Assembly: GCF_003202435.1 (NCBI RefSeq) | Contig: NZ_QJHK01000018.1 | Location: 1 to 64,000 of the forward strand | Direction of reading: 5' to 3' | Origin: Flavobacterium cheongpyeongense | Lineage (GTDB): Bacteria; Bacteroidota; Bacteroidia; Flavobacteriales; Flavobacteriaceae | Length of the DNA: 64,000 nt | Shown: positions 7,980 through 62,576 of the stretch, piece after piece | Numbering within the stretch: position 1 is the first letter of the stretch | Layout of the letters: the number at the start of each line of letters is the position of its first letter | The notes under the pieces: generated by a model | The model's input: the letters and a program-made list of their open reading frames with translations, nothing else | What the model was told of the DNA's origin: nothing | Database searches by the model: none | Translations under genes and position numbers: made by a program

Positions 7980-7996
7980 GCACCACAAATAATATT

Positions 7997-8578: not shown

Positions 8579-8603
8579 ATCACTATTAAGACACCTGAAT
8601 TGT

Positions 8604-35605: not shown

Positions 35606-36505
35606 TTAAGCATTCAAAGCCTCAACAGTAATTTGCTCGTCATTAAGCATACTTTTCAGCATGTTTTCAATACCGCTTTTCAAAGTAAAAGTAGATGAAG
35701 GACAACCACTGCAGGCTCCCTGCAAAATTACTTTTACAACCTTGTTGTCTTCATTATAAGAATCAAAAGCAATGTTTCCGCCATCAGCAGCAACAGCAGG
35801 CTTTACATATTCTTCGAGTATGTTGATGATTTGTTGTGATGTTACATCTAACTTTTCAAAAGCGTCATCTTTAGAGACATCATTTTTATTGACAGTCTCA
35901 ATTAAGCTTTCATCTAGGACAGTCCCGCCATTTTCAATATATTGTTTGATAAAAGTCCTGATTTCCAAGGTGATTTCCTGCCAGTCATTAATGTCGTATT
36001 TAGTGACAGAAATGTAATTTTCATCAATAAAAATTTCTTTGACATAGGGAAACTTGAATAACTCTTTTGCTAATGGAGAGGAAGCGGTCTGATCAATATT
36101 TTTGTATTCGACAGCATTTTTAGTCAACATTCTGCTTACCACAAATTTTAAAGCAGCCGGATTAGGTGTTGTTTCTCCGTAAACAGTAATAGGTTGTTTT
36201 TTAGGCTTGTTTTCATCAATATTTATGATAACACCGCCATTATTTACAAAAGTTTCAATTTGTTCAGCAACGGCATCCTGAACATTTTCCCATTCTACAA
36301 TACTGAATCTTTCAACGGCAATAAAATTTCCTGAAATATAAACTGTTTTTACAAAAGGAAGGTAGAATAATTGTTGTGCCAATGGTGATGATTTTGCTTC
36401 ATCGATATTTTTGAATTCAAAATTTTGATTTTGAGTAATGAAATCATCAAACTCGAATTTTATGATCGTCGGATTTTGAGTTTCTTTTATAGTGATTTTT
36501 ACCAT
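35606..36505 (-). CDS. Nfu-type iron-sulfur scaffold with duplicated N-terminal domain
   Basis: 299 aa. Two Nfu_N-type domains in tandem (about 1-95 and 108-200; each with the NIDEAKSSPLAQQLFYLP or NIDQTASSPLAKELFKFP pattern) precede a C-terminal NifU domain (about 215-299) with the cluster-binding CxxC in GACSGCPSSTFTLKSGIENML. It carries or delivers Fe-S clusters. The N-terminal duplication is the odd feature; single-copy is the usual form in other phyla. Confidence 0.92.
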   Translation of the reverse strand: MVKITIKETQNPTIIKFEFDDFITQNQNFEFKNIDEAKSSPLAQQLFYLPFVKTVYISGNFIAVERFSIVEWENVQDAVAEQIETFVNNGGVIINIDENKPKKQPITVYGETTPNPAALKFVVSRMLTKNAVEYKNIDQTASSPLAKELFKFPYVKEIFIDENYISVTKYDINDWQEITLEIRTFIKQYIENGGTVLDESLIETVNKNDVSKDDAFEKLDVTSQQIINILEEYVKPAVAADGGNIAFDSYNEDNKVVKVILQGACSGCPSSTFTLKSGIENMLKSMLNDEQITVEALNA

Positions 36506-36553
36506 GTCTGTATATTTTTTGTAAATTTAATAAAGTTATTTTCTACTAATGGC

Positions 36554-36561
36554 TATATTTG
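36554..36561 (+). promoter_or_regulatory. TAnnTTTG -7 element before second PorP/SprF gene
   Basis: TATATTTG lies 80 bases before the ATG at 36641, in the divergent region shared with the nfu gene. No good -33. Confidence 0.4.
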
Positions 36562-36640
36562 GTATTTTAATAAAACAATTAAGATTCTTTTTGTAATCAG
36601 TCTTGTTAAAATCTATAGGCATCTAAATATGTTTACTTAC

Positions 36641-37630
36641 ATGAAATTGAAAATCAGGATCTTATTAATTTGTATAGTCACTTCACTTTATTCCTATTCG
36701 CAAGAAGGAATTCCTGTGTATTCTGATTATTTATCGGATAATTATTATTTGATTCATCCTTCGATGGCTGGGGCTGCGAATTGTGCCAAGATAAGGCTGA
36801 CAGCCCGAAAGCAATGGTTTGGACAGGACGATGCGCCTTCTTTACAAACCTTAAGTTTCAACGGAAGAATAGGTGAAAGATCAGGGGCTGGTATTATTGT
36901 TTTTAATGATAAAAACGGTTATCATTCGCAAAAAGGGGTAAAACTTACTTATGCACATCATATTATGTTTTCAAGAAACGAACTGGATTTAAACCAGCTT
37001 TCTTTTGGTATAAGCGGAGGTGTAATTCAAAGTCAGTTGGATGAAACCTCTTTTGGAGGAACTTTCGATCCAATCGTTTTCGGATCAGTTCAATCAGATT
37101 CGTACTTTAATGTTGATGTAGGTGCTTCATATAATTTTTTGAATTTTTATGCTCATGCAACTGTTCAGGGACTGATTGAAACCAGAAGAAAATTATATAC
37201 GGATTATGAGAGCGATAATTTGAGAAAATTTCTTTTGAGCGCAGGATATGTTTTTGGAAAGTCAGAAAATATTACATGGGAACCTTCGATTTTATTTCAG
37301 TATTTTGATAAAACGAAAGAAAAGTCGGTTGACCTGAATTTAAAAGCTTATAAAAACATGGATTTCGGTAGTTTATGGGCGGCATTGTCTTACAGAAGAA
37401 GTTTTGATGGGGCAAGATATAATGCAGGAAGTGGAGTAAGTAATCAAAAATTGCAGTATATAACACCAATTATTGGACTTAATTATAAAAAATTCATGTT
37501 TGCCTATACTTATACAAACGTTACAGGAGATGTGAAATTTGATACAGGAGGATATCACCAAATTACCCTGGGGATTAACTTGTTTTGTACCAGAGAACGT
37601 TATGATTGTAAATGTCCTGCCGTTAATTAA
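36641..37630 (+). CDS. PorP/SprF family type IX secretion membrane protein (second)
   Basis: 329 aa from ATG 36641 (MKLKIRILLICIVTSLYSYS signal). The frame is open far upstream, over the nfu start, but that part is not protein-like. Family features are NYYLIHPSMAGAANC, RKQWFGQDDAPSLQTLSF and FNDKNGYHSQKGVKLTYAHH. It ends in a Cys-rich RYDCKCPAVN tail not seen in the first copy. No CHU_C-tailed gene is adjacent, so this copy is an orphan and may be a core component or serve a distant substrate. Confidence 0.9.
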   Translation: MKLKIRILLICIVTSLYSYSQEGIPVYSDYLSDNYYLIHPSMAGAANCAKIRLTARKQWFGQDDAPSLQTLSFNGRIGERSGAGIIVFNDKNGYHSQKGVKLTYAHHIMFSRNELDLNQLSFGISGGVIQSQLDETSFGGTFDPIVFGSVQSDSYFNVDVGASYNFLNFYAHATVQGLIETRRKLYTDYESDNLRKFLLSAGYVFGKSENITWEPSILFQYFDKTKEKSVDLNLKAYKNMDFGSLWAALSYRRSFDGARYNAGSGVSNQKLQYITPIIGLNYKKFMFAYTYTNVTGDVKFDTGGYHQITLGINLFCTRERYDCKCPAVN

Positions 37631-38162: not shown

Positions 38163-38882
38163 TTATAAATTGATTCTTTCGAAAAAAGCATTTTTATAGC
38201 TTTCACTGATCGGAATTCGTTTGTCACTAATCAAAACCTTATTTTTTTGTATTGATTTGACATGTTTGATGTTGATGATATAGGATCTGTGAATTCTCGA
38301 GAATCCTTTGCTGAAAAGTAAATTTTCTAATTTTATCAGGCTAATCAGTGTCAGGGTAAATTTATTATCAGTAGTGTAAATTTTCACGTAATCTTTTAAG
38401 CCTTCGATAAATAAAATATCTGCAAAATTCATTTTCACGTTTTCATATTCAGCCCTTACAAACATAAAATCCTGCTCTAGTTCAGGAAAAGTTGTGCTTT
38501 CAGAAATAGTCTGAACGGCAGCGGCTGTCGGAATTAAAATTTGCTGGGCTCTTACTACCGATTTTAGAAACCGGTGAAAAGGAATTGGTTTGACCAAATA
38601 ATCTACTGCACCAAGATTAAAACCTTCGACAGCATAATCAGAATAGGCTGTGGTAAAAATAATTAAAGGTTTTTTTTCGATCGTATTTAAAAATTCAATC
38701 CCTGAAAAATGAGGCATTTGGATATCAAGGAAAATTAAATCCACATTATTTTGATTAATAAAAGATACTGCATCGATAGCATTGTTGAAAGTGGTAATTA
38801 ATTCTAATGATTCAACTTTGCTAACAAAATCTTTTAGCAAATCTACTGCTAAAGGTTCATCATCTATAATTACGCATTTCAT
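38163..38882 (-). CDS. LytTR-family response regulator
   Basis: 239 aa. Receiver domain (1-120) with acidic pocket IIDDEP, phospho-acceptor Asp53 in FLDIQMP and the conserved T and K (IIFTTAYSDYA, YLVKPIPF). C-terminal LytTR DNA-binding domain (about 135-238; LFIEGLKDYVKIYT, FSRIHRSYIINIKHV). It is the likely partner of the histidine kinase encoded 114 bp upstream. It converges on the carbonic anhydrase-like gene. Confidence 0.95.
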   Translation of the reverse strand: MKCVIIDDEPLAVDLLKDFVSKVESLELITTFNNAIDAVSFINQNNVDLIFLDIQMPHFSGIEFLNTIEKKPLIIFTTAYSDYAVEGFNLGAVDYLVKPIPFHRFLKSVVRAQQILIPTAAAVQTISESTTFPELEQDFMFVRAEYENVKMNFADILFIEGLKDYVKIYTTDNKFTLTLISLIKLENLLFSKGFSRIHRSYIINIKHVKSIQKNKVLISDKRIPISESYKNAFFERINL

Positions 38883-38917
38883 CTTTTTAGATTTAAATTT
38901 TAATAAATTGGTCAGGT

Positions 38918-38925
38918 CAAAAGTA
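38918..38925 (-). promoter_or_regulatory. TAnnTTTG -7 element before LytTR regulator
   Basis: TACTTTTG on the minus strand, 36 bases before the regulator start, within the 114-bp gap to the kinase gene; the regulator may have its own promoter. Confidence 0.4.
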
Positions 38926-38996
38926 GCTTTAAACGAAAGACTTACATTTTAAAATTTAGTTAAAATATTGATTTAGTCTATTTGTTTAATACTGTT

Positions 38997-40085
38997 TTAA
39001 TGAATGTCAGTTTGAATTTTATCTAATTTCAAGTTCAGGTGTACACGATAGTACTGGTTGTCTTGTTTTATAGTCAATTCATGTGCATTCGGGTATAATA
39101 AATCGAGTCTGTTTTGAATGTTTGCTAATCCGATGCCTGAATTTTCGGGATCTTTTACATAGTTCTCGATGGCATTTTCTATCCAGAAATCGAGATTATT
39201 CTCCAGGATGAAAATTTTAATTTTTACGTGAGCAGCTCCTTTATAATCTGTTCCGTATTTAAAAGCATTTTCAATAAACGAAATTAATAACAAAGGTTCG
39301 ATGAATTTATTTTTAGTATTTCCGTGAACGTTTATAACGATGTCTTCAATATTGTTAAGCCTTAGTTTTTGTAATTCAATATAATTCTGAATATAATTGA
39401 TTTCTTTTTCTAAAGCCACCGTTTTATTATCCGTTTCATACAGCATATACCGCATTAATTCAGATAATGTCACGATGGCATCAGGGACCAAATCAGATTT
39501 TTTGTGAGCCAGAGAATAGATGCTGTTAAGAGAATTAAATAAAAAATGGGGATTAGTCTGTTTTCGTAAATAATTCAATTCTGTATTTGTTCTATGTGTT
39601 TCGGCTTTTAATTTATTTTGTTGATTTTGATAAAATTCGGTTAAGGTTCTAATAATAGTACTAATTGCTGTAATAAGAAGATAGAAAAAAGAAGGGCCTA
39701 TTTTAAAAAAAAGGGGCGGTTTATGCATACGGGCTTTCATTCTTCCTTCTTTAAAAAGCATCTTTGCTTCCTCGGGATTCATCCTTGGAGGCATTATATC
39801 GGTCATAAAATAATTAATTCTGATGAACATAAAAAATGAAATAAGCCCCAGAATAAAAGTAAAATAGAGCCAGTATTTTTTTTCTAAAAGTAAAGTAGGT
39901 ACCAGATAAAAATAATTCAGATAAAACAAAATAATTCCTGTTCCCCATTGTACATAGAAATCATTGTTGATTCTAAAGGGACTTTCATAAAATTGAATCA
40001 AGGATGTCAATATAAAGAAAGTCCAAATAGTGATATGAAATAGAATTTTATTTGAATTTGTATTTTTAAGGGTACCGATATTCAT
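38997..40085 (-). CDS. LytS-type sensor histidine kinase
   Basis: 362 aa. Four hydrophobic segments in the first 150 residues, a coiled linker, then the His_kinase domain with phospho-acceptor His180 in RKQTNPHFLFNSLNSIYS and an HATPase domain (LISFIENAFKYGTD, GIGLANIQNRLDLLYP). There is no periplasmic sensor domain beyond short loops; a Met- and charge-rich cytoplasmic or loop stretch (about 95-125) is notable. The gene abuts the DUF4907 gene without a gap, making these genes one transcription unit. Confidence 0.94.
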   Translation of the reverse strand: MNIGTLKNTNSNKILFHITIWTFFILTSLIQFYESPFRINNDFYVQWGTGIILFYLNYFYLVPTLLLEKKYWLYFTFILGLISFFMFIRINYFMTDIMPPRMNPEEAKMLFKEGRMKARMHKPPLFFKIGPSFFYLLITAISTIIRTLTEFYQNQQNKLKAETHRTNTELNYLRKQTNPHFLFNSLNSIYSLAHKKSDLVPDAIVTLSELMRYMLYETDNKTVALEKEINYIQNYIELQKLRLNNIEDIVINVHGNTKNKFIEPLLLISFIENAFKYGTDYKGAAHVKIKIFILENNLDFWIENAIENYVKDPENSGIGLANIQNRLDLLYPNAHELTIKQDNQYYRVHLNLKLDKIQTDIH

Positions 40086-40427
40086 TTACAGTTTTATTTT
40101 TAATAAAATTAAATCATTTTTGGTTACCGATGGAGACGTATTATGTTTGAGTTTTTTTATAACCAAATCAGCAACTTTTAAGGCATCACCTTCTGAGTTA
40201 AAACTTTTGGTATCACTAATAACAGGTATTATAGTTTGTCTGATTACAATTTTATTATCGTATAAAATTGTATAGCCCCACCCAGATGCTGTTTTGATAG
40301 ATTGAGCCTGGAGTTTTTCTTTTTTTGAACAGGCTGTCAGCAAAAGCAAAAATAAAATAAGAAATAAATTCTTCCGGAAAATGTTCCGGAAGAATTTTAG
40401 ATTTGGGGCATTAATTATCATCGTCAT
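40086..40427 (-). CDS. DUF4907 lipoprotein
   Basis: 113 aa. A hydrophobic stretch ends in the lipobox LLLLTAC (Cys33), then ASGWGYTILYDNKIVIRQTIIP and KSFNSEGDALKVADLVIKKL, which I recognise as the DUF4907 pattern. Function unknown. The start overlaps the end of the Kelch gene by 17 bp and the stop abuts the kinase start. A perfect hairpin at 40369-40394 lies in the codons of its signal peptide n-region. Confidence 0.8.
   Translation of the reverse strand: MTMIINAPNLKFFRNIFRKNLFLILFLLLLTACSKKEKLQAQSIKTASGWGYTILYDNKIVIRQTIIPVISDTKSFNSEGDALKVADLVIKKLKHNTSPSVTKNDLILLKIKL
40369..40394 (-). promoter_or_regulatory. perfect 11-bp hairpin inside DUF4907 coding start
   Basis: TTCTTCCGGAA / TTCCGGAAGAA with a 4-base loop, 17-42 bases after the Kelch stop. 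The T-rich stretch downstream on the minus strand makes it terminator- or attenuator-like, yet it encodes residues of the DUF4907 signal peptide. Confidence 0.7.
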
Positions 40428-41418
40428 TTTGTTCTTCTAATGGTTTGAATTCCCAGGCATCATCAAAATAAGTTGAACCGATTCTTCCTAACATTAAAAA
40501 ACCTCTATTGTTAATTGCAAAACCTACAGCGTCAGTTCTGGTAGCTCCTTCAAGCGCAGTTCTTTCTTCCCAGAGGTCAGTTGTAGGGTTGTATTCCCAT
40601 ACGGTTTTGATCCCTTCACCGCCTACAATATAACCCAATCCGTTTAAGCTGAAACTGGAGGCATTGGTTCGGGTTATCGCATAGTCATCGTTCCAGCTGT
40701 AATCATCATCATCATCCTGATCGATATCACGTTTTCTGGTCCACACATCTGTTGATGGATCAAATTCCCAAAAATCTACCTGATTGGTTCCGTTATTGAC
40801 ACCGGTTCCTAAATAGGCTTTATCATTAATGACAAAAACTGTAGCATGACGTCTTTTGTTTCCGCTAAACCCGCTGACAAGTGTCCAGGTGTTGTCGGTA
40901 TCGTTATACTGATAAAAATCTTTCAGATAGTTTCCATCGTAACCCGTTCCAAAATAAGCTTTTCCGCCTACCTGAAAACCTACAGCACCATAGCGTCCTG
41001 TACCGCCAAAGTCAGCCTTTGCTTCCCAACTATTGCTAACAGGGTCATACTGATAAAAATCTTTCAGTTTATTAGTCCCGTCATATCCAAGACCTATGTA
41101 GCCTTTACCATTTAGTTCAAAGCTAGATGCAGAACTTCTTGCTGATCCGGTGAAATCAGCTTTTTGTTCCCAGTAATCTCCATTCGAGTTGTAGGCCCAT
41201 AAATCTTTTAAATATTCATCTCCAGTGTAACCCGTTGTGATATAAGCATAATCTCCAATTACAAAACTTGTTGAGCTGGATCTGGCAGGTCCATCAAATG
41301 AAGATTTTTTAATCCAGTTTCCTATTAATTCATCATCATCATCATCGTTACTGCAGCCTATAAAAAACAGGCTTGAAAATAGTGCCGCGAATAATATTCC
41401 TTTTTTTAAATTATTCAT
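40411..41418 (-). CDS. Kelch-repeat lipoprotein
   Basis: 335 aa with a lipobox (LFFIGC, Cys22) followed at once by five Asp. Six Kelch-like blades follow, with repeated patterns such as FVIGDYAYITTGYTGDEYLKDLW, FQVGGKAYFGTGYDG and LNGLGYIVGGEG, each ending in W-Y/F pairs. Asp-rich patches also occur in one loop (DIDQDDDDDYSW) and at the C-terminus (EEQNDDDN), suggesting metal or Ca binding, which is inference. Such propellers bind protein or glycan partners at the cell surface. It lies 16 bp after the barrel-protein gene. Confidence 0.9.
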   Translation of the reverse strand: MNNLKKGILFAALFSSLFFIGCSNDDDDDELIGNWIKKSSFDGPARSSSTSFVIGDYAYITTGYTGDEYLKDLWAYNSNGDYWEQKADFTGSARSSASSFELNGKGYIGLGYDGTNKLKDFYQYDPVSNSWEAKADFGGTGRYGAVGFQVGGKAYFGTGYDGNYLKDFYQYNDTDNTWTLVSGFSGNKRRHATVFVINDKAYLGTGVNNGTNQVDFWEFDPSTDVWTRKRDIDQDDDDDYSWNDDYAITRTNASSFSLNGLGYIVGGEGIKTVWEYNPTTDLWEERTALEGATRTDAVGFAINNRGFLMLGRIGSTYFDDAWEFKPLEEQNDDDN

Positions 41419-41434
41419 AGTGTATTAAATTTAT

Positions 41435-42277
41435 TTATTGTTTGTATTTGATCCCAATGCTTAAAACAGAACCGTTGCCGGTATTAAAATCATATAGTTT
41501 GTGGTTGTTTTTATCCAGAAGATTGTACTTTTTGTCAAAATCATAACCTGCTTTAAAATTGATAAACCAGTTTTTATCCACATTTCTTTCGTATTCAATT
41601 GCAGTTGTTACTTGCGAAGTACTAATTTTTGTTGCTGTATCGTATATCGTATGAGGTTTATCCAGATTATAAAAACTACCGTTAAAACGATTACTCAGGC
41701 TAAATTTATTTCGTTCATTATTAGAATACGATATTTTTGAATCCGGAAAACCTATTAACAAGCTGCTTTGATTGTTTATTTTTCCTGAAAATGATAATGT
41801 AGGTATGAATTTGGGAGAACCGAAAACTGTTGATCTCTCAAAACCAATGTTTAAAGCTATTTTTGAATTTAATTGTTGATTCAATTGAAAACTTCCTAAA
41901 ACATTTGCATCTGAAATGCCCAAATTTTGTTGAAAATTAATTGTTGGCGTAATGGCTAAATTTAATTTTGCTGCATCAGAAACGGTATGTGAAATCTTAA
42001 ATTCGTTTTGAATCCGGTTAAACTGATTCAGATTTTCAAAAGAATCATAAGCTCCCATTTCATATTTTATTCTAAGATTTGTATATTCAAGTTTATTTGT
42101 AATTTCATTTTTATCGTTTAATTTAGCAGTAACCGATATAACGCCATTTGCTTCATTAAATTTAATTTCATCTGTTGCTTCATTCTTTAAACTAAAATCT
42201 ACAGAAATTTTTTCTTGTGACTTACTACTTAAAGTACAAACTAAAAATACCAACCAAACTAAAACCTTTATTTTCAT
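41435..42277 (-). CDS. outer-membrane beta-barrel protein (DUF6268-like)
   Basis: 280 aa, signal peptide (VWLVFLVCTLSSKSQ) and about 14 alternating amphipathic strands (TNKLEYTNLRIKYEMGAY, SKIALNIGFERSTVFGSP, NWFINFKAGYDFDKK), ending in a strand GSVLSIGIKYKQ with no C-terminal aromatic residue. I associate it with the DUF6268 group with moderate certainty. It is the first gene of the minus-strand run leading to the kinase and regulator. Confidence 0.7.
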   Translation of the reverse strand: MKIKVLVWLVFLVCTLSSKSQEKISVDFSLKNEATDEIKFNEANGVISVTAKLNDKNEITNKLEYTNLRIKYEMGAYDSFENLNQFNRIQNEFKISHTVSDAAKLNLAITPTINFQQNLGISDANVLGSFQLNQQLNSKIALNIGFERSTVFGSPKFIPTLSFSGKINNQSSLLIGFPDSKISYSNNERNKFSLSNRFNGSFYNLDKPHTIYDTATKISTSQVTTAIEYERNVDKNWFINFKAGYDFDKKYNLLDKNNHKLYDFNTGNGSVLSIGIKYKQ

Positions 42278-42294
42278 TCCTTATTTAATTGATT

Positions 42295-42302
42295 CAAAAG
42301 TA
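42295..42302 (-). promoter_or_regulatory. TAnnTTTG -7 element for barrel-Kelch-DUF4907-kinase unit
   Basis: TACTTTTG on the minus strand, 18 bases before the barrel-protein start, in the 232-bp divergent region with DUF4270. Confidence 0.5.
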
Positions 42303-42465
42303 GGGGGCAACCTGTCTTAAAAAAAAGAAGATATATGTATTGGGTTTTTTGATAGACTAATTGGCGATTTTTACAGTTTAATCAAATATTAGTTTGTTAA
42401 AGCCAGTTGTAGATTGTTTTGTACTATCTATAGTCTAAAAAAGGGGTATTGTATATGTTATAGTG

Positions 42466-42493
42466 TTGTCCAGAAATGTGCCTTTTATATTTG
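42466..42493 (+). promoter_or_regulatory. promoter of DUF4270 gene (TTG-N17-TATATTTG)
   Basis: TTG at 42466-42468, 17-bp spacer, TATATTTG at 42486-42493: both elements of the Flavobacterium consensus. It supports the DUF4270 start at 42510. Confidence 0.65.
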
Positions 42494-42509
42494 TTCAAAA
42501 AATTGGATT

Positions 42510-43832
42510 ATGTATAAGTTTATATTGATGTTGTTTTTTGCTTTTGGGATAGTTTCATGTGGGACGGATACAGATGCAGGAGAGTTTGTTGTGGGATCTG
42601 ATTATCTGGCAGTAAACAACAAGGTAATTTTAATTGATACGGTAACAGTCGAAATGTCTACCATAAATTTTGATTCTCTTATTACATCTAATCAAAGCAG
42701 AATTTTAATTGGCAGTTATGAGGATCCTTTATTTGGCAAAGTAAAATCAAACAGTTATTTTCAATTGGCATCAGATTCCTATAGTCTGATTAACAGTTCA
42801 TCTGATACAGAAGGGACAAATTATGTTTTTGATTCTATTTCCATGATTTTAAAATATGATAATTATTATTACGGAGATACGACTAAAGTACAAACATTTA
42901 ATATTCATCAATTACTGCAGAAGGTAAAACCCAATACAGATGATGACTACTTTTATAATAATTCGGCTTTGAATTATAGTTCTGAAAGTTTAGGAACTAT
43001 TTCGTATAAACCGAGGCCTGTTGAAAAAGATTCTATAAATATTAAAATGAATGCTGCTTTTGGCGAAGCTCTTTTTCAAAAATTTAAGAAAAGAGATATT
43101 ACAGATTTTGATAATTTCACTGAATACTTAAAAGGATTGGTACTTGTGCCGTCAACAGAAAATTCCTCAAGTATTATTGGATTTGGTTTAACGAGTAAAG
43201 TGCGACTTTATTATTCAAAATATTTAGGTGATGATATTGATTCTTATGTAAAAGATTTTTCCATTGTAGATGCAACCAAACAATTTAATGCTATATCGTT
43301 GGACAAAACGGGTACGCTGATTCAGAATCTACCTGTTTCAAATAGCAGATTATCCAGCCTTTTGACCAATAATCAGAGTTATATTCAATCGGGAACCGGG
43401 GTAGCATGCCGAATCGATTTTCCAAACATAAAACAACTTAAATATATATCTGATAAAGGGGCTATTGTTGATGCTAAATTGATTTTAAAACCTGTTAATA
43501 ATACATATTCTGAGAAATTTCCTTTATCGGACTCATTACGTGTTTATGTCGCTGATAAACTCAACAGGATTAGTGGTACCCTAAACACAACATCAGGAAC
43601 GCCTTTATATGCTATGCTGAATAAACAAAGTGATGAATTCAATGAAAATGTTGGGTATTCATTGTCAGTTGGTGGTTTTCTGCAAAAAGAAATGCTAAAA
43701 CAATCAGATTCCAGATCTTCATTGATTTTTGTTTTACCAAACATCTATAAAGCAGTTAACAGGCTGGTTTTGGGTGATCAAAAACATCTGAATAATAAAA
43801 TTCAATTGAAAATTTATTACCTCTCTTATTAA
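42510..43832 (+). CDS. DUF4270 lipoprotein
   Basis: 440 aa from ATG 42510; the frame is open further upstream but this start gives a lipoprotein signal (LFFAFGIVSC, Cys17) and lies 17 bp after a good promoter. DUF4270 features include IDTVTVEMSTINFDSLITSNQSRILIGSYEDPLFGKVKSNSYFQL (shown here in fragments: VEMSTINFDSLIT, GSYEDPLFGKVKS) and IKQLKYISDKGAIVDAKLIL. Function unknown; a surface or periplasmic lipoprotein. The next gene starts on the very next base. Confidence 0.88.
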   Translation: MYKFILMLFFAFGIVSCGTDTDAGEFVVGSDYLAVNNKVILIDTVTVEMSTINFDSLITSNQSRILIGSYEDPLFGKVKSNSYFQLASDSYSLINSSSDTEGTNYVFDSISMILKYDNYYYGDTTKVQTFNIHQLLQKVKPNTDDDYFYNNSALNYSSESLGTISYKPRPVEKDSINIKMNAAFGEALFQKFKKRDITDFDNFTEYLKGLVLVPSTENSSSIIGFGLTSKVRLYYSKYLGDDIDSYVKDFSIVDATKQFNAISLDKTGTLIQNLPVSNSRLSSLLTNNQSYIQSGTGVACRIDFPNIKQLKYISDKGAIVDAKLILKPVNNTYSEKFPLSDSLRVYVADKLNRISGTLNTTSGTPLYAMLNKQSDEFNENVGYSLSVGGFLQKEMLKQSDSRSSLIFVLPNIYKAVNRLVLGDQKHLNNKIQLKIYYLSY

Positions 43833-45068
43833 ATGAAAAATAAAATCACCTTTTTAAGTTGCTTCATTTTAATGTATGTAACCTCGTTTTCGCAAAGTAT
43901 TTCCAGTTCCCCGTATTCATTGTACGGTGTGGGTAGCCTATATGATGCAGATTATGGTTCAATCCCTTCCATCGGTTCTTCAGGAATTGCATTGCCATCA
44001 GATACTTTTATCAATAATCTCAATCCGGCTTCACTAGGTTATATCCCATTGAATCATTTTATGTTTGAAATAGGAGGTAAAGCGATCGGAACAACGTTTC
44101 AGAGCAGTACTAAATCTGAAAAACGCAATAATTTTCAGTTTTCACATATTGCTTTTGCATTTCCGGTAACTAAAAAATCTGCTTTCAGTATTGCTTTACG
44201 ACCTTATTCAAGCGCTTCGTTTAAAATTTCAGATTTAAAATTACCTATTTCGAATACTTCGGAATATTATACTTTAAATGCTGAGGGGGCAGGAGGATTG
44301 AATAATTTTGATCTTTCATACGGGTATCGTGTAAACAAAAAAATAGCAATAGGGATTTCGGGGACTGTACTTTTTGGAAATACGACTGATGAGAGAAGTT
44401 ATATCATTTCAAATTCACTGACAACAATTAACAAAAAAACAACTTATAGCGGCTTACGGGCAACTTTAGGGACTCAGTATAAAATAGATTCGACCTTTAC
44501 CATTGCATCAACTTTTAAATTGCCTGTCCAGGTTAAGGCTTCTAAAGTGCAGTCGGTAGAGAATGTAAACGATTCAAATGAGAGTGCTTTTGAGTCAGAT
44601 GTAGCTTCCGATACAGATGATTATTATATACCCTTGGAAATAGGTTTTGGTGTTAGTAAACGTTTCAAAAACAATTTCACGATGACTCTTGATTATGAAA
44701 AAAGTTTATGGAATGAAACCAATCAATCCAAATTATATGGCGATTTTGTTAATCAGGATCGTTTTGCTTTGGGGTTTAGTTTTAGAAAAAATAAAAACAT
44801 CAGAAGTTATTGGGATGGCGTTCAATATGGAACAGGCTTGAATTTTGATACCGGTTATCTTGAAGTCGATGGGAAAAGGGTCAATAATGCAGCAATTTCT
44901 TTTGGAGTTTCCTTACCGGTTGATAACACTTATTCAGTTCTTAATATTTCGTATTCTTACGGACAAAAAGGCAAAATTGGTGATGGGTTAATAAAAGAAA
45001 ATTACCACAAACTATCACTAAATTTATCATTAGACGGAATTTGGTTCGTCAAGCGAAAGATAGAATAA
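43833..45068 (+). CDS. outer-membrane beta-barrel protein paired with DUF4270
   Basis: 411 aa, signal peptide ending VTSFSQ, then SISSSPYSLYGVGSLYD and a FadL/OmpP1-like beginning (NNLNPASLGYIPLNHFMFEIGG) with barrel strands to the C-terminus (KLSLNLSLDGIWFVKRKIE). Start directly abuts the DUF4270 stop, so the two are translationally coupled. The pairing of a DUF4270 lipoprotein with a barrel suggests a lipoprotein-plugged or surface-displayed complex; this is inference. Confidence 0.8.
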   Translation: MKNKITFLSCFILMYVTSFSQSISSSPYSLYGVGSLYDADYGSIPSIGSSGIALPSDTFINNLNPASLGYIPLNHFMFEIGGKAIGTTFQSSTKSEKRNNFQFSHIAFAFPVTKKSAFSIALRPYSSASFKISDLKLPISNTSEYYTLNAEGAGGLNNFDLSYGYRVNKKIAIGISGTVLFGNTTDERSYIISNSLTTINKKTTYSGLRATLGTQYKIDSTFTIASTFKLPVQVKASKVQSVENVNDSNESAFESDVASDTDDYYIPLEIGFGVSKRFKNNFTMTLDYEKSLWNETNQSKLYGDFVNQDRFALGFSFRKNKNIRSYWDGVQYGTGLNFDTGYLEVDGKRVNNAAISFGVSLPVDNTYSVLNISYSYGQKGKIGDGLIKENYHKLSLNLSLDGIWFVKRKIE

Positions 45069-46371: not shown

Positions 46372-48558
46372 ATGAAAATGACAAAATATGTAATTATTTT
46401 GGCTGCATTTATATGTTCGTTCGCATATAGCCAAAACACTTTAAGAATTATCGTAAAAGATAGTGAAACCCTGAAAAGTTTAGCAGGTGTTTCAGTTAGT
46501 ATTCATAATAGTACTATTTCCGGAATAACAGATGACAAAGGTTTTTTAGAATTAAATCCTATTGAAAATGGGGAGCACAAAATTAATTTTGTTCTTTTAG
46601 GGTACGAAGAATTTTCATTAAATGTAATTCTTCCAAAGCAGAATGGAGAACTTGTAAGCGTTCAGTTGAAATCGAGTGAAGAAGAAGAACTGGATGCGGT
46701 TGTTGTTCAGTCAACACGAACCAGCAGGACAATCAAAAATACACCAACAAGAATCGAATCCATTGATGCCGAAGAACTTGATGAAAAGGCCAATATGAAA
46801 CCAGCAAATGTAAGTATGGTGTTGCATGAAAGCACCGGTTTGCAGGTGCAGCAAACATCTGCCACCAGTGGTAATGCAAGTATCAGGGTACAGGGGCTTG
46901 ACGGCCGCTATACGCAATTATTGAAAGATGGATATGCTAATTTTGGGAATTTTGCAAGCGGTTTAAGTATTCTTGAAATTCCACCTTTAGATTTGCAGCA
47001 GGTTGAGGTAATCAAAGGACCTTCTTCAACATTGTACGGAGGAGGAGCAATAGCAGGTGCGATTAATTTTATTTCAAAGACACCAAAACAAAAAGGAGAA
47101 TATAATTTTATACTGAATCAATCCAATATCAATCAAACGAATATTGGGGCGTATGCATCACAACGAAAAGGCAAATTTGGGTATTCGATATTAGGGTTGG
47201 TTAATTTTCAAAAAGCTTTTGATGTCGATGATGATGATTTTTCAGAGACTCCAAAATCGCATAATTTTACCATAAACCCCAGATTGTTTTATTATCCTTC
47301 AGAAAATTTGAGTTTTATGTTGGGTAATAGTTTTACCAAGACTGACATCGAAGGAGGGGATATGCATGTTATTGAAGGTTATCCCGATGCGTATCATGTT
47401 TATTTCGAAAAAAACAAAACAATACGCAATACAACTACTTTTGAACTGGATAAGAAATTTGATAATCAAAATAGTTTGAAATTAAAACAGAGCCTGAGTG
47501 TTTTTGACCGAAAAATCAATATTCCGGATTATGAGTTTTCGGGAGTAAATACCAATTCTTTTACTGAAGTATCCTATGTCGTAAACAAATCAAGATATAC
47601 TATTATTAGTGGTTTGAATTTAGTTTATGATAAATTTAAACAAAGAAATTCCGGTATTTTGGATGCTCAATCTTTTACTACGGGTGCATATTTTCAGCAT
47701 ACGTGGGATGTGACTGAAAGGGTAAAGTTAGAGAATGGTTTAAGATTGGATAATGTATCGTATTCGAATACTAATTTTTCAAAAAATCAGACTTTCTTTT
47801 TACCAAAAGTGGCCGCATTGTTTAAAATAAATTCACAATTAAGCAGTAGAGTTGGTGCTGGTCTTGGATACAAAATTCCAACTGTTTTTACAGAACAAAC
47901 AGAATCTGTTCAATATCAAAATCTCCTGCCTTTGCAAAATGTAGTTGCAGAAAAAAGTATCGGAGGAACGGCAGATATAAATTACAAAGTAAATATTTTT
48001 TCTGATTTGAAATTTTCTGTTAATCAGATGTTTTTTATAACAGAAATTAGCAAACCATTGGTTTTGGAAAATGAGGCAGATTATTCATTCTTTGTAAATG
48101 CATCAGATCCTGTTGTTAGTAAAGGTTTTGAAACTAACATTAAGTTTGTTTATAAGGAAGATCTAAAACTTTTTGTTGGGTATACTTTTACTGACGCACA
48201 GGCTCAATATTTAACAGGAAATCAATTTTTGCCTTTATTACCAAAAAACAAAGTAAACCTGGCACTGATTTATGAAAAGGAGACCAATTTTAAAATAGGA
48301 TTGGAAGGTTATTTTACAGATGAACAATATTTATATAACGGTGATAAAACGCCAACTTATTGGGAATTTGGTTTTATGGTAGAGAAAACACTATGGGATA
48401 AATTTGCTTTTTTTATCAATTTTGAGAACTTTACGGATACACGACAGAGTACTTATAAGAGAGTGGTCAATGAGCCTCACAACAAACCAACATTTGATGA
48501 TATCTGGACACATACAGAAGGATTTACAATTAATGGTGGCGTAAAAATAAAATTATAA
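46372..48558 (+). CDS. TonB-dependent receptor
   Basis: 728 aa. Signal peptide (FAYSQ), carboxypeptidase-regulatory-like domain (about 22-102; GVSVSIHNSTISGITDDKGF), then the plug (about 125-235; RIQVQ-type segment NASIRVQGLDGRYTQLLKDG and PLDLQQVEVIKGPSSTLYGG) and the barrel to the C-terminus (FINFENFTDTRQ, GFTINGGVKIKL). It resembles siderophore, cobalamin or metal receptors. The Cys-rich neighbour favours a metal ligand. No SusD partner is present. Confidence 0.93.
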   Translation: MKMTKYVIILAAFICSFAYSQNTLRIIVKDSETLKSLAGVSVSIHNSTISGITDDKGFLELNPIENGEHKINFVLLGYEEFSLNVILPKQNGELVSVQLKSSEEEELDAVVVQSTRTSRTIKNTPTRIESIDAEELDEKANMKPANVSMVLHESTGLQVQQTSATSGNASIRVQGLDGRYTQLLKDGYANFGNFASGLSILEIPPLDLQQVEVIKGPSSTLYGGGAIAGAINFISKTPKQKGEYNFILNQSNINQTNIGAYASQRKGKFGYSILGLVNFQKAFDVDDDDFSETPKSHNFTINPRLFYYPSENLSFMLGNSFTKTDIEGGDMHVIEGYPDAYHVYFEKNKTIRNTTTFELDKKFDNQNSLKLKQSLSVFDRKINIPDYEFSGVNTNSFTEVSYVVNKSRYTIISGLNLVYDKFKQRNSGILDAQSFTTGAYFQHTWDVTERVKLENGLRLDNVSYSNTNFSKNQTFFLPKVAALFKINSQLSSRVGAGLGYKIPTVFTEQTESVQYQNLLPLQNVVAEKSIGGTADINYKVNIFSDLKFSVNQMFFITEISKPLVLENEADYSFFVNASDPVVSKGFETNIKFVYKEDLKLFVGYTFTDAQAQYLTGNQFLPLLPKNKVNLALIYEKETNFKIGLEGYFTDEQYLYNGDKTPTYWEFGFMVEKTLWDKFAFFINFENFTDTRQSTYKRVVNEPHNKPTFDDIWTHTEGFTINGGVKIKL

Positions 48559-48617: not shown

Positions 48618-49121
48618 TTAGAATCCTAAATCTTTTTTAACATCAGCAGTAATGTTTGGACCATCAGCTAATAAAAGAGTTGAACCGTCTAATACGTACT
48701 GGAAACCTTTTGCTTTTCCAATTTTTTGGATAGAAGCTCTTACTTTTTCCATTAAAGGTTTTACTAAATCAGTTTCTTTTTGTTGAAGTTCTTTTTGAGC
48801 ATTGTCTCTGTAATCCCCAATTCTCTTTTGCATATCCTGAACTTCTTTGGCACGCTCAGTATTTACTGCTTCAGTTGCAGTTGCAGATTCAGCATCATAC
48901 TTTTTGATTTTTGTTTGGTATTCTTCGATCATTTTTTTGTATTCTGCATCGTATGTTCCACTTAATTTTTGTAATTGAGTTTGGGCATCAAGCATAGCTG
49001 GCATCTTCGACATAATCTCGCTAACATCAACATGAGCTGTTTTAGCCTGCGCATTCATTGTATTGTTTGCAGTTAAAAAAAGCACTGCAGCAATTACTAA
49101 AGTTTTGATTTGTTTCATCAT
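48618..49121 (-). CDS. OmpH/Skp family periplasmic chaperone (short)
   Basis: 167 aa, signal peptide (AANNTMNAQA-type, cleavage near MNAQA) and a long charged coiled coil (about 45-120) followed by the Skp trimerisation-like part ending LDGSTLLLADGPNITADVKKDLGF. Skp proteins keep unfolded outer-membrane proteins soluble before BamA inserts them. It is the last gene of the bamA operon. Confidence 0.92.
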   Translation of the reverse strand: MMKQIKTLVIAAVLFLTANNTMNAQAKTAHVDVSEIMSKMPAMLDAQTQLQKLSGTYDAEYKKMIEEYQTKIKKYDAESATATEAVNTERAKEVQDMQKRIGDYRDNAQKELQQKETDLVKPLMEKVRASIQKIGKAKGFQYVLDGSTLLLADGPNITADVKKDLGF

Positions 49122-49135
49122 TTTAAAAATATTAA

Positions 49136-50128
49136 TTAATTATTGGTCGTATTTGTTTTTTGTGTTTCTGCTTCTTTAGCTTTTTTAGCGGCTTCTCTTT
49201 CTTCTAAAATTTTCTTTCTTTTTTCTTCTAATTCTTTTTTACGCTGGTCATAAAGTTTCTGCCTTTCTTCGGCCTTATTGACTGCAGGCTCAGCAGTTGT
49301 TTGTTCTGTACTTACAACAGGTTTAGCAGTTTGCGTTGTCTCTGTTGTTTTTGTTGTTTCAGAAACTGTGCCATTTTTCTTGGCAGCTTTTTCAGCGGCT
49401 ATGGCGTTTCTTTTATCTTCGTATTCTTTTCGTTTTGCTTCCTGTTCTAGTTTTCTGTCAGCAACTAATTTATCTCTTGCTGCTTTTCTTGCATCCAGGG
49501 CTTTTTGTCTGTCTGCCATTGCCGGATTTTCATCAATTTCGTTTTCACGATTTTCTTTGGCTTCTTGTTCTTTTAATTGTTTTTTAGTGAGCTGTTCTCT
49601 TTTATCTGCTCTGTTTAAAATACGAATAACCTGATCGCTTATATCAAATCTCTTAGCTGAAAATAGCATTGTCAAATCAGATGATTTATCAAATATAAAA
49701 TCATAGTTTTTAGCTTCGGCAATGTCCTGAACAGCAGTAAAAACCTGATCTTGTATTGGTTTTGCCAAAGATGCTTTTTGATGCATTAAATTTCCGTCAA
49801 CTCCAAATTGTTTTTGTTGATATTCCAGCATCTCATTTTCCAGAAATTTAATTTCTGTTTCTCTTTCCTCGATAAGTTCTTTTGTAAGTAAAGCTTTTTC
49901 AGTTTTGAGAGTTTCTTTTAATTTATTTATTTCTAATTTTTTGATTTCAATTTCCTGTTTCCACTTAGTTGCTTTTAAGTCTAATTGAGATTTGGCTTCT
50001 TTGTAATCAGAAACATTTTCTAAAATATATTCCATGTCGATGTAGCCAATTCTGGTCGATCTTGTCTGCGCCTCATTTGTATTTGCTACAATCAGGGATA
50101 AAAATATAAATAAAAACTGTTTTCTCAT
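49136..50128 (-). CDS. OmpH/Skp family chaperone with charged C-terminal extension
   Basis: 330 aa. Signal peptide (IVANTNEAQ), then an OmpH-like core (about 20-180; TRIGYIDMEYILENVSDYKEAKSQL, FIFDKSSDLTMLF). The C-terminal 150 residues are a low-complexity K, E, R and A tail with coiled-coil character (ADRQKALDARKAARDKLVAD) and a Thr-rich interruption (about 255-280). The tail is not part of a normal Skp. It lies directly after bamA, 41 bp apart. Confidence 0.9.
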   Translation of the reverse strand: MRKQFLFIFLSLIVANTNEAQTRSTRIGYIDMEYILENVSDYKEAKSQLDLKATKWKQEIEIKKLEINKLKETLKTEKALLTKELIEERETEIKFLENEMLEYQQKQFGVDGNLMHQKASLAKPIQDQVFTAVQDIAEAKNYDFIFDKSSDLTMLFSAKRFDISDQVIRILNRADKREQLTKKQLKEQEAKENRENEIDENPAMADRQKALDARKAARDKLVADRKLEQEAKRKEYEDKRNAIAAEKAAKKNGTVSETTKTTETTQTAKPVVSTEQTTAEPAVNKAEERQKLYDQRKKELEEKRKKILEEREAAKKAKEAETQKTNTTNN

Positions 50129-50169
50129 ACCATTACTTTATTTCCAAATTTTAACCAAATATCATCTTT

Positions 50170-52815
50170 TTAAAATTGTTGTCCAATAATAAAGTGTATT
50201 TCCTGACCGTGTGCTTTTGTTTCACCTGTCTGAGCATCAAATCCGTAACCAAAATCAATACCTAATAATCCAAATGCAGGCATAAATACACGCAAACCAA
50301 AACCTGCAGAACGATACAAGTCAAAAGGATTGTAGTTTTTAAATCCATCGTAAGCAGCACCAGCTTCAAGAAAAGTCAAAGCATATATTGATGCTGATGG
50401 TTTCAGTGTAATAGGATAACGTAATTCCATAGAGAATTTGTTATAAATCGTAGCACCAATTTGTTGACCGTTTTTTATTGGAGTCAAAGAATTATTTTCG
50501 TATCCTCTTAATCCAATAGTTTCCCTGCCATCCATCGAGTAGTTAGCCATACCGTCTCCACCTAAATAAAAACGTTCAAAAGGAACAATACCTCTGTCCT
50601 GATTATAAGCACCCATGAAACCAAATTCAGTTAATGTTCTTAAAACTAATTTTCCATATACTTTATTATACCAGTCTGCTTTAAATTTAACTTTATAATA
50701 TTCGAGCCAGTTGTATTTTTCCTGATCTACTTTTGCCGGATCAGCGGCAGCTTCCTGAGGAGTACTTACTTTGTTTCCGGATGAATCAAGATAGTCACCC
50801 TTTTCAATCATTTGTCCATTTGCATCTGGTACTGTTGAATCAGCGCTTGCTCTTAATTTATATTCTTCTTTGTCACCTAAGGTTGCATAATCTACATTGT
50901 TAAATAAAGAGTAAGGAGGTGTTACTTTTGCTGAAACACTGAACTCAGAACCGTAAGTTGGGAATATAGGATTCACCCCTTTATTACTTCTCGTAAGACC
51001 AATTGTATAGGCTAAATTTCTTGAAGTTCCATTACCAAAAGTAAAAAGACCCGTAAAATAATTATTCAAGTCATAGTGCTGATAACTTACAGACTGCGAT
51101 AGTACGAAATAATCATCCGGAACAGTTAATCTCTTTGCAAGTCCAACTTGTAAAGTTAGAATGTTAAAGCTTTGGCTTTTGTCTACATTATTTCCATAGC
51201 TGTAATTGAACTGCTTACTGTATGAAATAGATGAACTAAATTGTACCGGTTTTTTTCCTCCAAACCAAGGTTCTGAGAACGATATACTATAAGTTTGAAA
51301 ATAAGTACTTCCTTGTAAACGAAGGGAAACTTTTTGGCCATCTCCCATAGGCAATGGTTTGTAGGCTTCTTTTTTAAACATGTTCCTTGCCGAAAAGTTA
51401 TTGAAAGATAATCCTAAAGTCCCTATGAAACCTCCTCCACCGTATCCTCCTTGTAATTCTACCTGGCTGGAACCTTTTTCGACTAGGTTGTACTCAATAT
51501 CTACTGTTCCGGCTGCGGCATCTACATTTTTAAATTTAGGATCAATTGCTTCAGGGTCAAAAAAGCCTAACTGCCCAATTTCACGAATGGTTCTTACTAA
51601 TAACTCTTTACTGTATTTTTCACCCGGTTTAGTTCTTAGCTCACGATAGATAACATGGTCATTCGTTTTATCATTTCCTACTACAGATATTTTATTGAAA
51701 TAGGCGATAGGTCCTTCGGTGATTCTAATTTCAAAATCAATTGTATCATTTACTGTTTTAACCTCTACTGCATTAATATTTGAAAATAGATACCCGTTGT
51801 TTTGGTATAGGTTTGTAATGTCTTCGCCGTCAGGTTTTGTTTTGTCTGCTATTCTTTTTTCAAGTAATACTCCGTTGTAGGTTTCTCCCTTTTTAATTCC
51901 CAGATAACGATTAAGCTGTTGGTCAGAATAAACGGTATTTCCTAAAAATTTAATATTTCCGAAGTAATATTTATTTCCTTCTTCCAGATTAATTTTAATA
52001 GCAAGCATGTTTTTTTCTTTATTATAAGTGACAGAGTCATATATAATACGTGCATCACGATATCCTTTTTCTTTATAGGATGCAATAACTTTTTCTAAGT
52101 CGGTTTTGTATTTTTCAGGAATAAATTTTGAGGCTTTCAGTACACGCAATATATTTTTTTGTTTGGTGTCTTTCATGGCACTTCTTAGCTGATTGTCTGT
52201 AAGTTGCTTGTTGCCTGTAAAGTCAATACTTTTGATTTTTACTTTGTCTCCTTTGTCTATGCGAACCAGCATGTTTACACTGTTTCCTGCAGTAGCGTCT
52301 GGAGTAGTTGTGATAGTTACTTTTGTATTGTAAAAACCTTCTTTTTTGTATTTGTTTTCGATGTAATTTTTTGTCGTAGTGATTAGATTTTCGTTTACAA
52401 TCTTACTTTTTGTCAGGTTGTTATCTTTTATAAGACCTTCTACTTTACCCTTTTTTATACCAACAAATTTTACTTCGTTTAGTTTAGGAAGTTCAACTAT
52501 ATTTAAGTCCAGGTATATACTGTCATTTTCGGCTTTATTTACGTAAAATGAAATTTCATCAAAAAGGCCAAGCTTTCCTAATTTCTTAATCGCTCCACTA
52601 ATTTCTTCACCAGGAACAGTAATTTCCTGTCCTTTTTGCAGGCCAGAAAATGTTACAACGGTTTGTTCATTGAAGCTTATTTTACCAACAACAGAAACTT
52701 TTGCAAGAATATATTTTTTTCCCTGATCAAAAGGGATTCTTTCTTGAGCTTTAATTTGAGAAAAACTACCCAAAAGAAATAGGGTAAGTACTATTTGTAT
52801 TCTTTTTTGTAACAC
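50170..52815 (-). CDS. bamA: outer-membrane protein assembly factor BamA
   Basis: 881 aa from GTG at 52815 (8 bp after the uppS stop); an in-frame GTG at 52839, overlapping uppS, is the alternative. Either gives a signal peptide ending in SFSQIKAQ. Five POTRA domains follow (about 30-430; GKISFNEQTVVTFSGLQKG, KVKIKSIDFTGNKQLTDNQL) and a 16-strand barrel (Bac_surface_Ag; LQGGYGGGGFIGTLGLSF, RLQGSTYFQTYSISFSEPWF, GIDFGYGFDAQTGE). It inserts barrel proteins into the outer membrane. Confidence 0.95.
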   Translation of the reverse strand: MLQKRIQIVLTLFLLGSFSQIKAQERIPFDQGKKYILAKVSVVGKISFNEQTVVTFSGLQKGQEITVPGEEISGAIKKLGKLGLFDEISFYVNKAENDSIYLDLNIVELPKLNEVKFVGIKKGKVEGLIKDNNLTKSKIVNENLITTTKNYIENKYKKEGFYNTKVTITTTPDATAGNSVNMLVRIDKGDKVKIKSIDFTGNKQLTDNQLRSAMKDTKQKNILRVLKASKFIPEKYKTDLEKVIASYKEKGYRDARIIYDSVTYNKEKNMLAIKINLEEGNKYYFGNIKFLGNTVYSDQQLNRYLGIKKGETYNGVLLEKRIADKTKPDGEDITNLYQNNGYLFSNINAVEVKTVNDTIDFEIRITEGPIAYFNKISVVGNDKTNDHVIYRELRTKPGEKYSKELLVRTIREIGQLGFFDPEAIDPKFKNVDAAAGTVDIEYNLVEKGSSQVELQGGYGGGGFIGTLGLSFNNFSARNMFKKEAYKPLPMGDGQKVSLRLQGSTYFQTYSISFSEPWFGGKKPVQFSSSISYSKQFNYSYGNNVDKSQSFNILTLQVGLAKRLTVPDDYFVLSQSVSYQHYDLNNYFTGLFTFGNGTSRNLAYTIGLTRSNKGVNPIFPTYGSEFSVSAKVTPPYSLFNNVDYATLGDKEEYKLRASADSTVPDANGQMIEKGDYLDSSGNKVSTPQEAAADPAKVDQEKYNWLEYYKVKFKADWYNKVYGKLVLRTLTEFGFMGAYNQDRGIVPFERFYLGGDGMANYSMDGRETIGLRGYENNSLTPIKNGQQIGATIYNKFSMELRYPITLKPSASIYALTFLEAGAAYDGFKNYNPFDLYRSAGFGLRVFMPAFGLLGIDFGYGFDAQTGETKAHGQEIHFIIGQQF

Positions 52816-52822
52816 TAAAATA

Positions 52823-53563: not shown

Positions 53564-53564
53564 T

Positions 53565-62545: not shown

Positions 62546-62576
62546 TTGTCTCCTGTTGTGAAAACGAATTTTCTAC

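Follow-up and report, generated by a model that had tools for sequence, protein, structure and literature searches.

A conserved cassette of BamG and BamH paralogues with a Kelch lipoprotein and a LytS/LytT pair in Flavobacterium cheongpyeongense

The window analysed here is a stretch of 64 kb from the Flavobacterium cheongpyeongense genome, in which seven genes (positions 38163 to 45068) form a cassette of two divergent operons. Judged from the sequences of the window and of its relatives, this locus is one conserved unit. Its plus strand codes for BamH2 and BamG2, paralogues of two subunits of the β-barrel assembly machinery (BAM). Its minus strand codes for a Kelch lipoprotein, a DUF4907 protein, an optional DUF6268 barrel and a LytS/LytT two-component pair, whose regulator is predicted to drive both operons. 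We give an evenly balanced chance to the proposal that the cassette codes for an alternative, inducible canopy of BAM, which would bind BamA, respond to an envelope signal and serve particular clients. A sequence-only reading of this DNA had described the locus as uncharacterised. Its seven-gene layout stands, five genes on the minus strand and two on the plus strand all lying where it had placed them, while the plus-strand pair it had left anonymous is in fact BamH2-BamG2. The two paralogues were already named in two 2025 papers; no link to a Kelch protein, to DUF4907 or to a LytTR system was found in the texts searched. The features of the window are as follows.

38163-38882, minus strand: LytTR response regulator, LytT-like (Pfam Response_reg 5.4e-21 and LytTR 6.4e-18)
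38997-40085, minus strand: histidine kinase, His_kinase/GHKL (PF06580, 7.8e-25)
40086-40427, minus strand: DUF4907 protein, membrane-anchored, a lipoprotein in the window (PF16250, 2.3e-22)
40411-41418, minus strand: Kelch lipoprotein (Kelch families of Pfam)
41435-42277, minus strand: DUF6268 outer-membrane barrel, optional member (PF19783, 2.8e-10)
42295-42302, minus strand: predicted -7 box TACTTTTG (TAnnTTTG) of the minus-strand operon (combined box and operator pattern)
42332-42363, no strand: predicted LytTR-type operator of the minus-strand operon (half-sites 42332-42342 and 42353-42363)
42403-42455, no strand: weak series of half-sites towards bamH2 (42403-42413, 42424-42434 and 42445-42455)
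42486-42493, plus strand: predicted -7 box TATATTTG of bamH2-bamG2 (box/operator geometry)
42510-43832, plus strand: bamH2, DUF4270 lipoprotein, BamH paralogue (PF14092, 2.2e-30; AlphaFold2 fold match)
43833-45068, plus strand: bamG2, FadL-type barrel, BamG paralogue (NF053685, 404.8 bits)
50170-52953, minus strand: bamA, BAM core (TIGR03303, 335.7 bits, cut-off 297)

On the minus strand of the window, the barrel and Kelch genes are 16 bp apart, the Kelch and DUF4907 genes overlap by 17 bp, the DUF4907 and kinase genes abut and 114 bp separate the kinase gene from that of the regulator. The bamH2 and bamG2 genes abut on the plus strand. Both operons diverge from an intergenic region of 232 bp (42278-42509).

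The second barrel has no Pfam match. It scores above the cut-off of 250 bits of the NCBIfam BamG model NF053685, over profile positions 2-397, and matches BamG-type chains of the PDB with E-values of 3e-35 to 4e-31. In the structure of the F. johnsoniae BAM, the N-terminal tail of BamG threads the lateral opening and contacts BamA (PMC12611786); such an extended tail marks BamG off from transport FadL proteins. The N-terminal motif SPYS..G.G is found in 16 of 16 canonical BamG sequences and in 39 of 43 cassette copies, including that of the window. A canonical BamG is encoded elsewhere in the window genome (455.7 bits), and the two copies are 24% identical. The cassette sequences (43) and the canonical ones (16) form separate groups in a tree, with a support of 1.0; for the trees, the loci in the orientation covered could be read, 15 of 30 for BamG and 15 of 33 for BamH. 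By its sequence the window barrel is a BamG paralogue, BamG2. Several family genomes that do not carry the cassette (e.g. G005, G012 and G054) have two BamG-family matches and a single DUF4270 protein.

The bamH2 product scores 106.6 bits against DUF4270 of Pfam (cut-off 27). Its AlphaFold2 model, built with 43 sequences, has a predicted local distance difference test score (pLDDT) of 88 and a predicted template modelling score of 0.81. The model was compared with three solved BamH chains, from F. johnsoniae, Porphyromonas gingivalis and Bacteroides thetaiotaomicron. It matches 9n2d_C, the F. johnsoniae BamH, with a Z score of 25.8 over 392 residues at 5.6 Å, 9hjm_G with a Z score of 24.7 and 9his_G with a Z score of 21.2 (Foldseek E-values for the BamH chains of 1.2e-22 to 3.4e-17). 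The next fold match is a carbohydrate-binding module, 8wab_B (Z score 12.0). Sequence and profile searches of the PDB retrieved no BamH, which was found by fold comparison alone. A canonical BamH scoring 609 bits against the BamH model lies elsewhere in the window genome, where its gene is flanked by a glycogen-synthase-like gene and glmS. BamH2 counts 440 residues versus 575 for this canonical protein, and eight blocks of the canonical alignment (6-31 columns) are missing from cassette BamH2. F. johnsoniae BamH2 is described as devoid of the hairpin that docks BamM (PMC12611786). As for BamG, the tree separates BamH2 (45 sequences) from BamH (15 sequences) with a support of 1.0. The DUF4270 protein is, on this sequence evidence, the paralogue BamH2 and not BamH proper. 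Canonical identity was ruled out for both proteins of the window pair, which are paralogues since the canonical BamH and BamG sit elsewhere in the genome. A lipobox-like motif is present in 41 of 44 BamH2 proteins of relatives, with a mean of 2.05 acidic residues among the seven that follow the cysteine. At least two acidic residues after the cysteine point to export to the surface in Bacteroidota (PMC12578637), and BamH2 is probably exposed at the surface.

The paralogues could have left BAM altogether. BamG2 would then be a FadL-type transporter or receptor barrel, and BamH2 and the Kelch protein would be surface lipoproteins that bind a ligand under their own two-component control. We consider this unlikely. 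It agrees with the resemblance of a domain of the BamH fold to the carbohydrate-binding module, with the ability of FadL-type barrels to transport hydrophobic molecules (PMC12611786) and with the B. thetaiotaomicron genetics, in which no sign of a second BAM is reported (PMC12578637). On the other hand, the tail motif with which BamG contacts BamA persists in the great majority of cassette copies, the BamH fold is preserved across 392 residues, and in one relative only the cassette versions were found of BamG and BamH, two proteins that are essential in F. johnsoniae. In this relative (G014, a single contig listed as 100% complete), the one BamG match is in the cassette, the one DUF4270 match has an E-value fitting the cassette BamH2, and the BamH model finds nothing outside the cassette. 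A second genome (G016, 91% complete, 220 contigs) gives the same picture, with in addition a weak match of 25 residues to BamH on another contig (E-value 0.23), in a frame that begins like a lipoprotein; G014 is the stronger case for missing canonical copies. With none but the cassette copies recognised in the complete genome G014, this pair is apparently sufficient by itself.

The conservation of the gene set is far above chance. BamH2 was found in 23 of 149 family genomes, and a strong Kelch match (E-value at most 4e-69) in exactly the same 23 genomes, the best match elsewhere having an E-value of 1e-11; any Kelch match at an E-value of at most 0.001 is found in 32 of the 149. DUF4907 occurs in 20 of the 149 family genomes and always inside cassettes. 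The order regulator-kinase-(DUF4907)-Kelch-(DUF6268), divergent from BamH2-BamG2, is kept together with the strands in 21 of 22 family relatives. The genes flanking the window cassette are recognised in the same-genus relative only, except for one TonB-receptor match of 45 bits in locus L041; flanks are not unique to each relative, those of L035 and L038 being alike in the size of their open reading frames. In three loci (L094, L101 and L106) the gene order is rearranged and the genes are still together. Independent shuffling of the neighbours in relatives, which would have contradicted the sequence-only reading, is thus the opposite of what is seen, and the explanation that these genes are neighbours without any functional link, already refuted by co-occurrence, gene order and promoter geometry, is hardly credible.

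At the scale of the phylum, DUF4907 was found in 29 of 395 genomes, a sample rich in the genus of the window whose members are not independent. The Kelch gene adjoins it in 29 of 29, BamH2 is present in 26 of 29 and BamG2 in 24 of 29. In one of the three DUF4907 loci without BamH2 (L102), a shortened Kelch gene has next to it a pair of open reading frames that resembles an insertion sequence. These open reading frames of 514 and 249 residues (5169-8508), directly before the Kelch gene, presumably form an IS21-type istA/istB pair; no BamH2 was found in this locus. A class-wide search with a BamH2 profile also matches canonical BamH, so that at least 344 of 395 genomes were matched, and it leaves no clean score gap: locus L266, at 257 bits, is canonical-like and L267, at 237 bits, has a Kelch gene. 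Twenty places were fetched, namely the 12 best new matches and eight chosen lower down with others between skipped. Nine have a Kelch gene close by, and 11 have canonical-BamH-like surroundings as judged by open reading frame size alone, with flanking frames of about 270-285 and 612-614 residues in nine and the first of these frames only in L270 and L273.

Taken together, 54 of 57 loci have BamH2, the three others being dropped from the tally. Kelch is close in 54 of these 54, BamG2 in 47, DUF4907 in 45, the kinase and regulator in 42 (counting every match that reached 75 bits and lay at most 6 kb away) and DUF6268 in 21. The 54 loci comprise 23 family loci anchored on BamH2, 22 anchored on DUF4907 and nine class loci added after a Kelch gene was seen, so that selection pushes the Kelch and DUF4907 figures upward and the cleanest count comes from the family draw, in which Kelch accompanies BamH2 in 23 of 23. 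Nearer to the window, all seven genes are present in 74 of 80 named loci, DUF6268 being missing in five and one locus being cut by a contig end; these loci, the 80 top matches out of 521, all belong to Flavobacterium or are classified near it, count an F. johnsoniae strain among them and are not independent.

The window Kelch lipoprotein has six Kelch repeats, counted by eye from the alignment, and is predicted from this count to be a six-bladed propeller. Acidic residues follow its lipid cysteine, as in proteins of the surface-export type. In relatives, 44 of 49 Kelch proteins have a lipobox-like motif, and acidic residues average 3.75 among the seven after the cysteine, which suggests a location at the cell surface. 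Identity with BamI, a lipoprotein that contacts BamH through a six-bladed propeller in B. thetaiotaomicron (PMC12578637), was rejected, the first repeat starting about 11 residues after the lipid cysteine with no N-terminal Ig-like domain. With a Kelch profile, BamI was not among the best 60 of 109 PDB matches, mostly Kelch proteins, which says nothing either way. In locus L053, devoid of the kinase-regulator pair, the Kelch gene is duplicated in tandem beside BamH2-BamG2, and locus L099 has three tandem Kelch copies with DUF4907 and no BamH2 found. The sequence-only reading had counted three lipoproteins. This holds for the Kelch and DUF4270 proteins; for DUF4907 it holds within the genus of the window and fails in most relatives, where 20 of 44 proteins have a lipobox-like motif, 24 do not, and the protein outside the genus mostly has an N-terminal membrane anchor. 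The residues after the cysteine of DUF4907 proteins are on average 0.65 acidic and 1.75 basic, pointing to the periplasm as their location. The DUF4907 AlphaFold2 model has a pLDDT of 90. It gave no Foldseek match at an E-value of 0.001 or below, its best Z score (5.4) was under the informative level, a profile search of the PDB gave no match, and a literature search found no paper on this family. The DUF6268 barrel gene adjoins the Kelch gene where mapped. In locus L033 an intradiol-dioxygenase-like lipoprotein (8015-8713; PF00775, 48.7 bits) takes its place between Kelch and BamH2.

The position of the DUF6268 gene bears on another explanation, that of a dedicated assembly module in which BamG2-BamH2 is a client-specific BAM attachment and the Kelch lipoprotein and DUF6268 barrel are its clients, Kelch being cargo and not canopy. 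The constant presence of Kelch near BamH2 would be expected of a client no less than of a partner, and the DUF6268 gene, where present, stands beside it. DUF6268 is however missing from 33 of the 54 loci, no sequence feature tells a partner from a client, and we hold this explanation to be improbable.

The regulator has its phospho-acceptor at D53 within the motif FLDIQMP. The kinase has NPHF, N and G boxes and about four membrane helices predicted from hydropathy, and neither domain searches nor hydropathy recognised a sensor domain in it; the signal may therefore enter through a partner protein. The DUF4907 protein, encoded directly upstream of the kinase, may be this partner. In five Flavobacterium cassettes (L084, L089, L091, L092 and L093) an additional open reading frame of about 236 residues lies between kinase and regulator.

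An operator for this regulator was sought in 29 divergent regions. Among spacings of 12-39 bp, 21 bp alone is enriched for repeated words (Z scores of 7.4, 8.7 and 9.2 for three word lengths versus -2.6 to 1.6 at the others). The fitted half-site is roughly T[AC][GT]AC.AA[CT], with a log-likelihood of 194 at a spacing of 21 versus 66-107 at eight other spacings that were fitted with fewer restarts. Random controls for the spacing and block-conservation tests were first-order resamplings. In sample, 40 sites were counted in 23 of 28 loci versus none in 20 resampled sets. Since the matrix derives from these very divergent regions, weight is placed on leave-out rankings, in which the half-sites of the remaining loci still come from the joint fit. 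When one locus at a time is left out, its top-scoring paired site over the full 14-64 kb lies within the divergent region in 20 of 29. When all Flavobacterium are left out, the divergent-region site comes first in 31 and among the top five in 74 of 79 named loci. Locus L053, without the kinase-regulator pair, has the worst-ranked site among relatives. The operator block of the window is kept in an alignment of 85 Flavobacterium-type sequences.

TAnnTTTG is the -7 motif of Bacteroidota promoters. Both -33 and -7 promoter motifs are mentioned for F. johnsoniae (PMC12611786). A sigma-70 promoter scan scored below its shuffle mean. The half-sites of the window operator are 21 bp apart and 29 bp from the left -7 box, those on the bamH2 side 21 bp apart and 30 bp from the right one. 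On the left side, the gap between a TAnnTTTG box and the operator could be measured in 13 of 29 regions and is 29, 30 or 50 (29+21) bp in all 13. On the right side, it could be measured in six of 29 and is 29-30 bp in all six. The window sites lie under the score threshold used for this count. The combined box and operator pattern has a single match in the 64 kb (42295-42361) for 0.01 expected. Over 127 sequences (2.09 Mb), the 29-bp pattern has 118 matches in the divergent regions of 108 loci versus four elsewhere, one of which, in L094, is upstream of a single-strand run with BamH2, Kelch, DUF4907, kinase and regulator. The 30-bp pattern has 39 matches in divergent regions versus 10 elsewhere, and other spacings have 0-7 inside. 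LytTR proteins bind two direct repeats of 9 bp that are 10-13 bp apart and are mostly activators acting upstream of the -35 region (PMC11347149), in agreement with the repeats found here. The prediction that the linked LytT drives both divergent operons is well supported because LytTR-type repeats stand at a fixed promoter spacing on both sides. The claim of a single envelope system with its own regulation gains support from these two-sided operators and from the exact co-occurrence of BamH2 and Kelch.

The bamA gene lies about 5 kb from the cassette, a proximity the sequence-only reading had missed. The flanking sequence fetched includes bamA in 72 of 80 named loci, but in none of nine class loci and in none of 21 family loci from other genera; the proximity is seen in the genus Flavobacterium only. 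Starting 3.5 kb past the cassette, the window (48618-54248) contains a skp-like gene, a skpA-like OmpH gene, bamA and porG (53565-54248) of the type IX secretion system (T9SS). A TonB-receptor gene (46372-48558) stands between murI and skp, which is not so in several Flavobacterium relatives. On the other side, a PorP/SprF-family T9SS membrane protein adjoins the cassette (36425-37630; 244 bits to PF11751). Assignment of the cassette to a T9SS gene set was rejected, this neighbour not being recognised beside it in relatives outside the genus. A polysaccharide-utilisation locus was ruled out by domain content, SusC/SusD domains being found in none of the seven genes (Pfam, NCBIfam). Further away are a DUF4403 protein (25013-26416, full-length match, 438 bits) and a Flavo-1 RNA (62575-62650; Rfam RF01705, 50.2 bits for a gathering score of 42).

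The proposal of an alternative canopy is put forward because of the BAM paralogues, G014, the proximity of bamA and a constant six-repeat Kelch neighbour comparable to BamI. A membrane or envelope signal, perhaps sensed via the membrane-anchored DUF4907 protein, would activate the LytS-type kinase. Phosphorylated LytT would then occupy the 21-bp repeats ahead of each promoter, turning on both operons and with them its own genes. BamG2 would take the position of BamG at the back of BamA, with BamH2 lying over the barrel and the Kelch propeller attached to BamH2 in the manner of the BamI propeller on BamH in Bacteroides. Such a modified canopy would serve particular outer-membrane clients, the DUF6268 barrel being a candidate.

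Several observations weigh against this proposal. Of 40 kinases, 33 have both the NPHF and the EN[AS] motif, and a narrow phospho-acceptor motif is present in 28 of 39 regulators. The window operator ranks 14th in its own 64 kb, and the paired half-sites on the bamH2 side score 3.9-4.0, stronger ones being found in many relatives. BamH2 scores 31.2 bits against the BamH equivalog NF053686, far under the cut-off of 420. Among the 54 loci, seven are without a nearby BamG2, which also favours the departure of the paralogues from BAM, nine without DUF4907 and 12 without the full kinase-regulator pair. The analogy between Kelch and BamI is one of propeller count, probable surface location and linkage. 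In F. johnsoniae, bamG2 and bamH2 can be deleted, and their expression in rich medium is not appreciable (PMC12611786). In B. thetaiotaomicron, where BamG2-BamH2 form a putative operon (Bt1785-1786), both proteins were undetected by proteomics, and a bamH bamH2 double mutant is no worse than bamH, which the authors take as an argument against a rescuing alternative complex (PMC12578637). The only paper found to mention DUF4270 lists these genes (BT1785-86) as 3.6-fold up in iron depletion with a P value of 0.437 (PMC10434189). An iron response was rejected, the values 3.551 and 0.437 recurring for many genes of this source, which is read as near-silence.

A last explanation is an envelope-stress backup, in which the kinase senses BAM failure and induces a spare BamG and BamH, the second canopy being unspecialised. 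A regulator of its own, proximity to bamA in Flavobacterium and the apparent replacement of canonical copies in G014 speak for it. We regard it as very improbable: BamG2 and BamH2 are undetected in a B. thetaiotaomicron bamH deletion mutant (PMC12578637), BamH2 is restricted to 23 of 149 family genomes, and cassette and canonical copies form separate clades. Extending the alternative canopy to the phylum, many Bacteroidota might have two interchangeable BamA faces, a LytTR switch swapping BamG-BamH for BamG2-BamH2-Kelch outside rich-medium conditions, and some species might live on the switchable set alone. This extension is possible although doubtful.

BamG2 and BamH2, silent puzzles until now, gain a likely regulator, an operator of exact geometry, a partner that is always nearby and a natural species in which no canonical copies can be recognised. 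The alternative canopy, if true, may explain the spare BAM parts that others found silent in laboratory medium, and two switchable faces would place BAM client choice under transcriptional control. A strain with a locked-on regulator would open to direct test the question whether Bacteroidota have a second, conditional BAM complex; this applies to F. johnsoniae as well, where strains lacking bamG2 or bamH2 or depleted for BAM have been built (PMC12611786). Literature searches found, among the papers listed in the collection searched, none tying a Kelch protein, DUF4907 or a LytTR system to BamG2/BamH2 and nothing on Kelch with Flavobacterium and histidine kinase; Kelch with Flavobacterium transcriptomics gave one unrelated paper. 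The words Kelch and two-component are in neither of the two main texts, as far as these were available (PMC12611786, PMC12578637).

The cassette shares with known LytTR two-component systems a receiver-LytTR regulator, a His_kinase partner and direct-repeat operator half-sites about two turns apart (PMC11347149). It differs from them in that its predicted operator serves a divergent promoter pair of outer-membrane assembly paralogues and that its kinase has no recognised sensor domain. The F. johnsoniae BAM consists of BamADGHMP (PMC12611786; PDB 9n2d). Its BamG and BamH have the same folds and families as the window pair, the canonical BamH and BamG are also present in the window genome, the paralogues BamG2 and BamH2 are named there and the bamA locus likewise has skpA and porG (PMC12611786). 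In contrast to that complex, the window pair is a paralogue set with a shorter BamH2 and is tied to Kelch, DUF4907 and LytS/LytT. The BAM of B. thetaiotaomicron and P. gingivalis is BamADGHIJK (PMC12578637; PDB 9his, 9hjm). The BamH fold of B. thetaiotaomicron is matched by BamH2, a putative BamG2-BamH2 operon is present and BamI is a surface propeller lipoprotein, whereas the predicted cassette propeller is of the Kelch type and devoid of the Ig-like domain.

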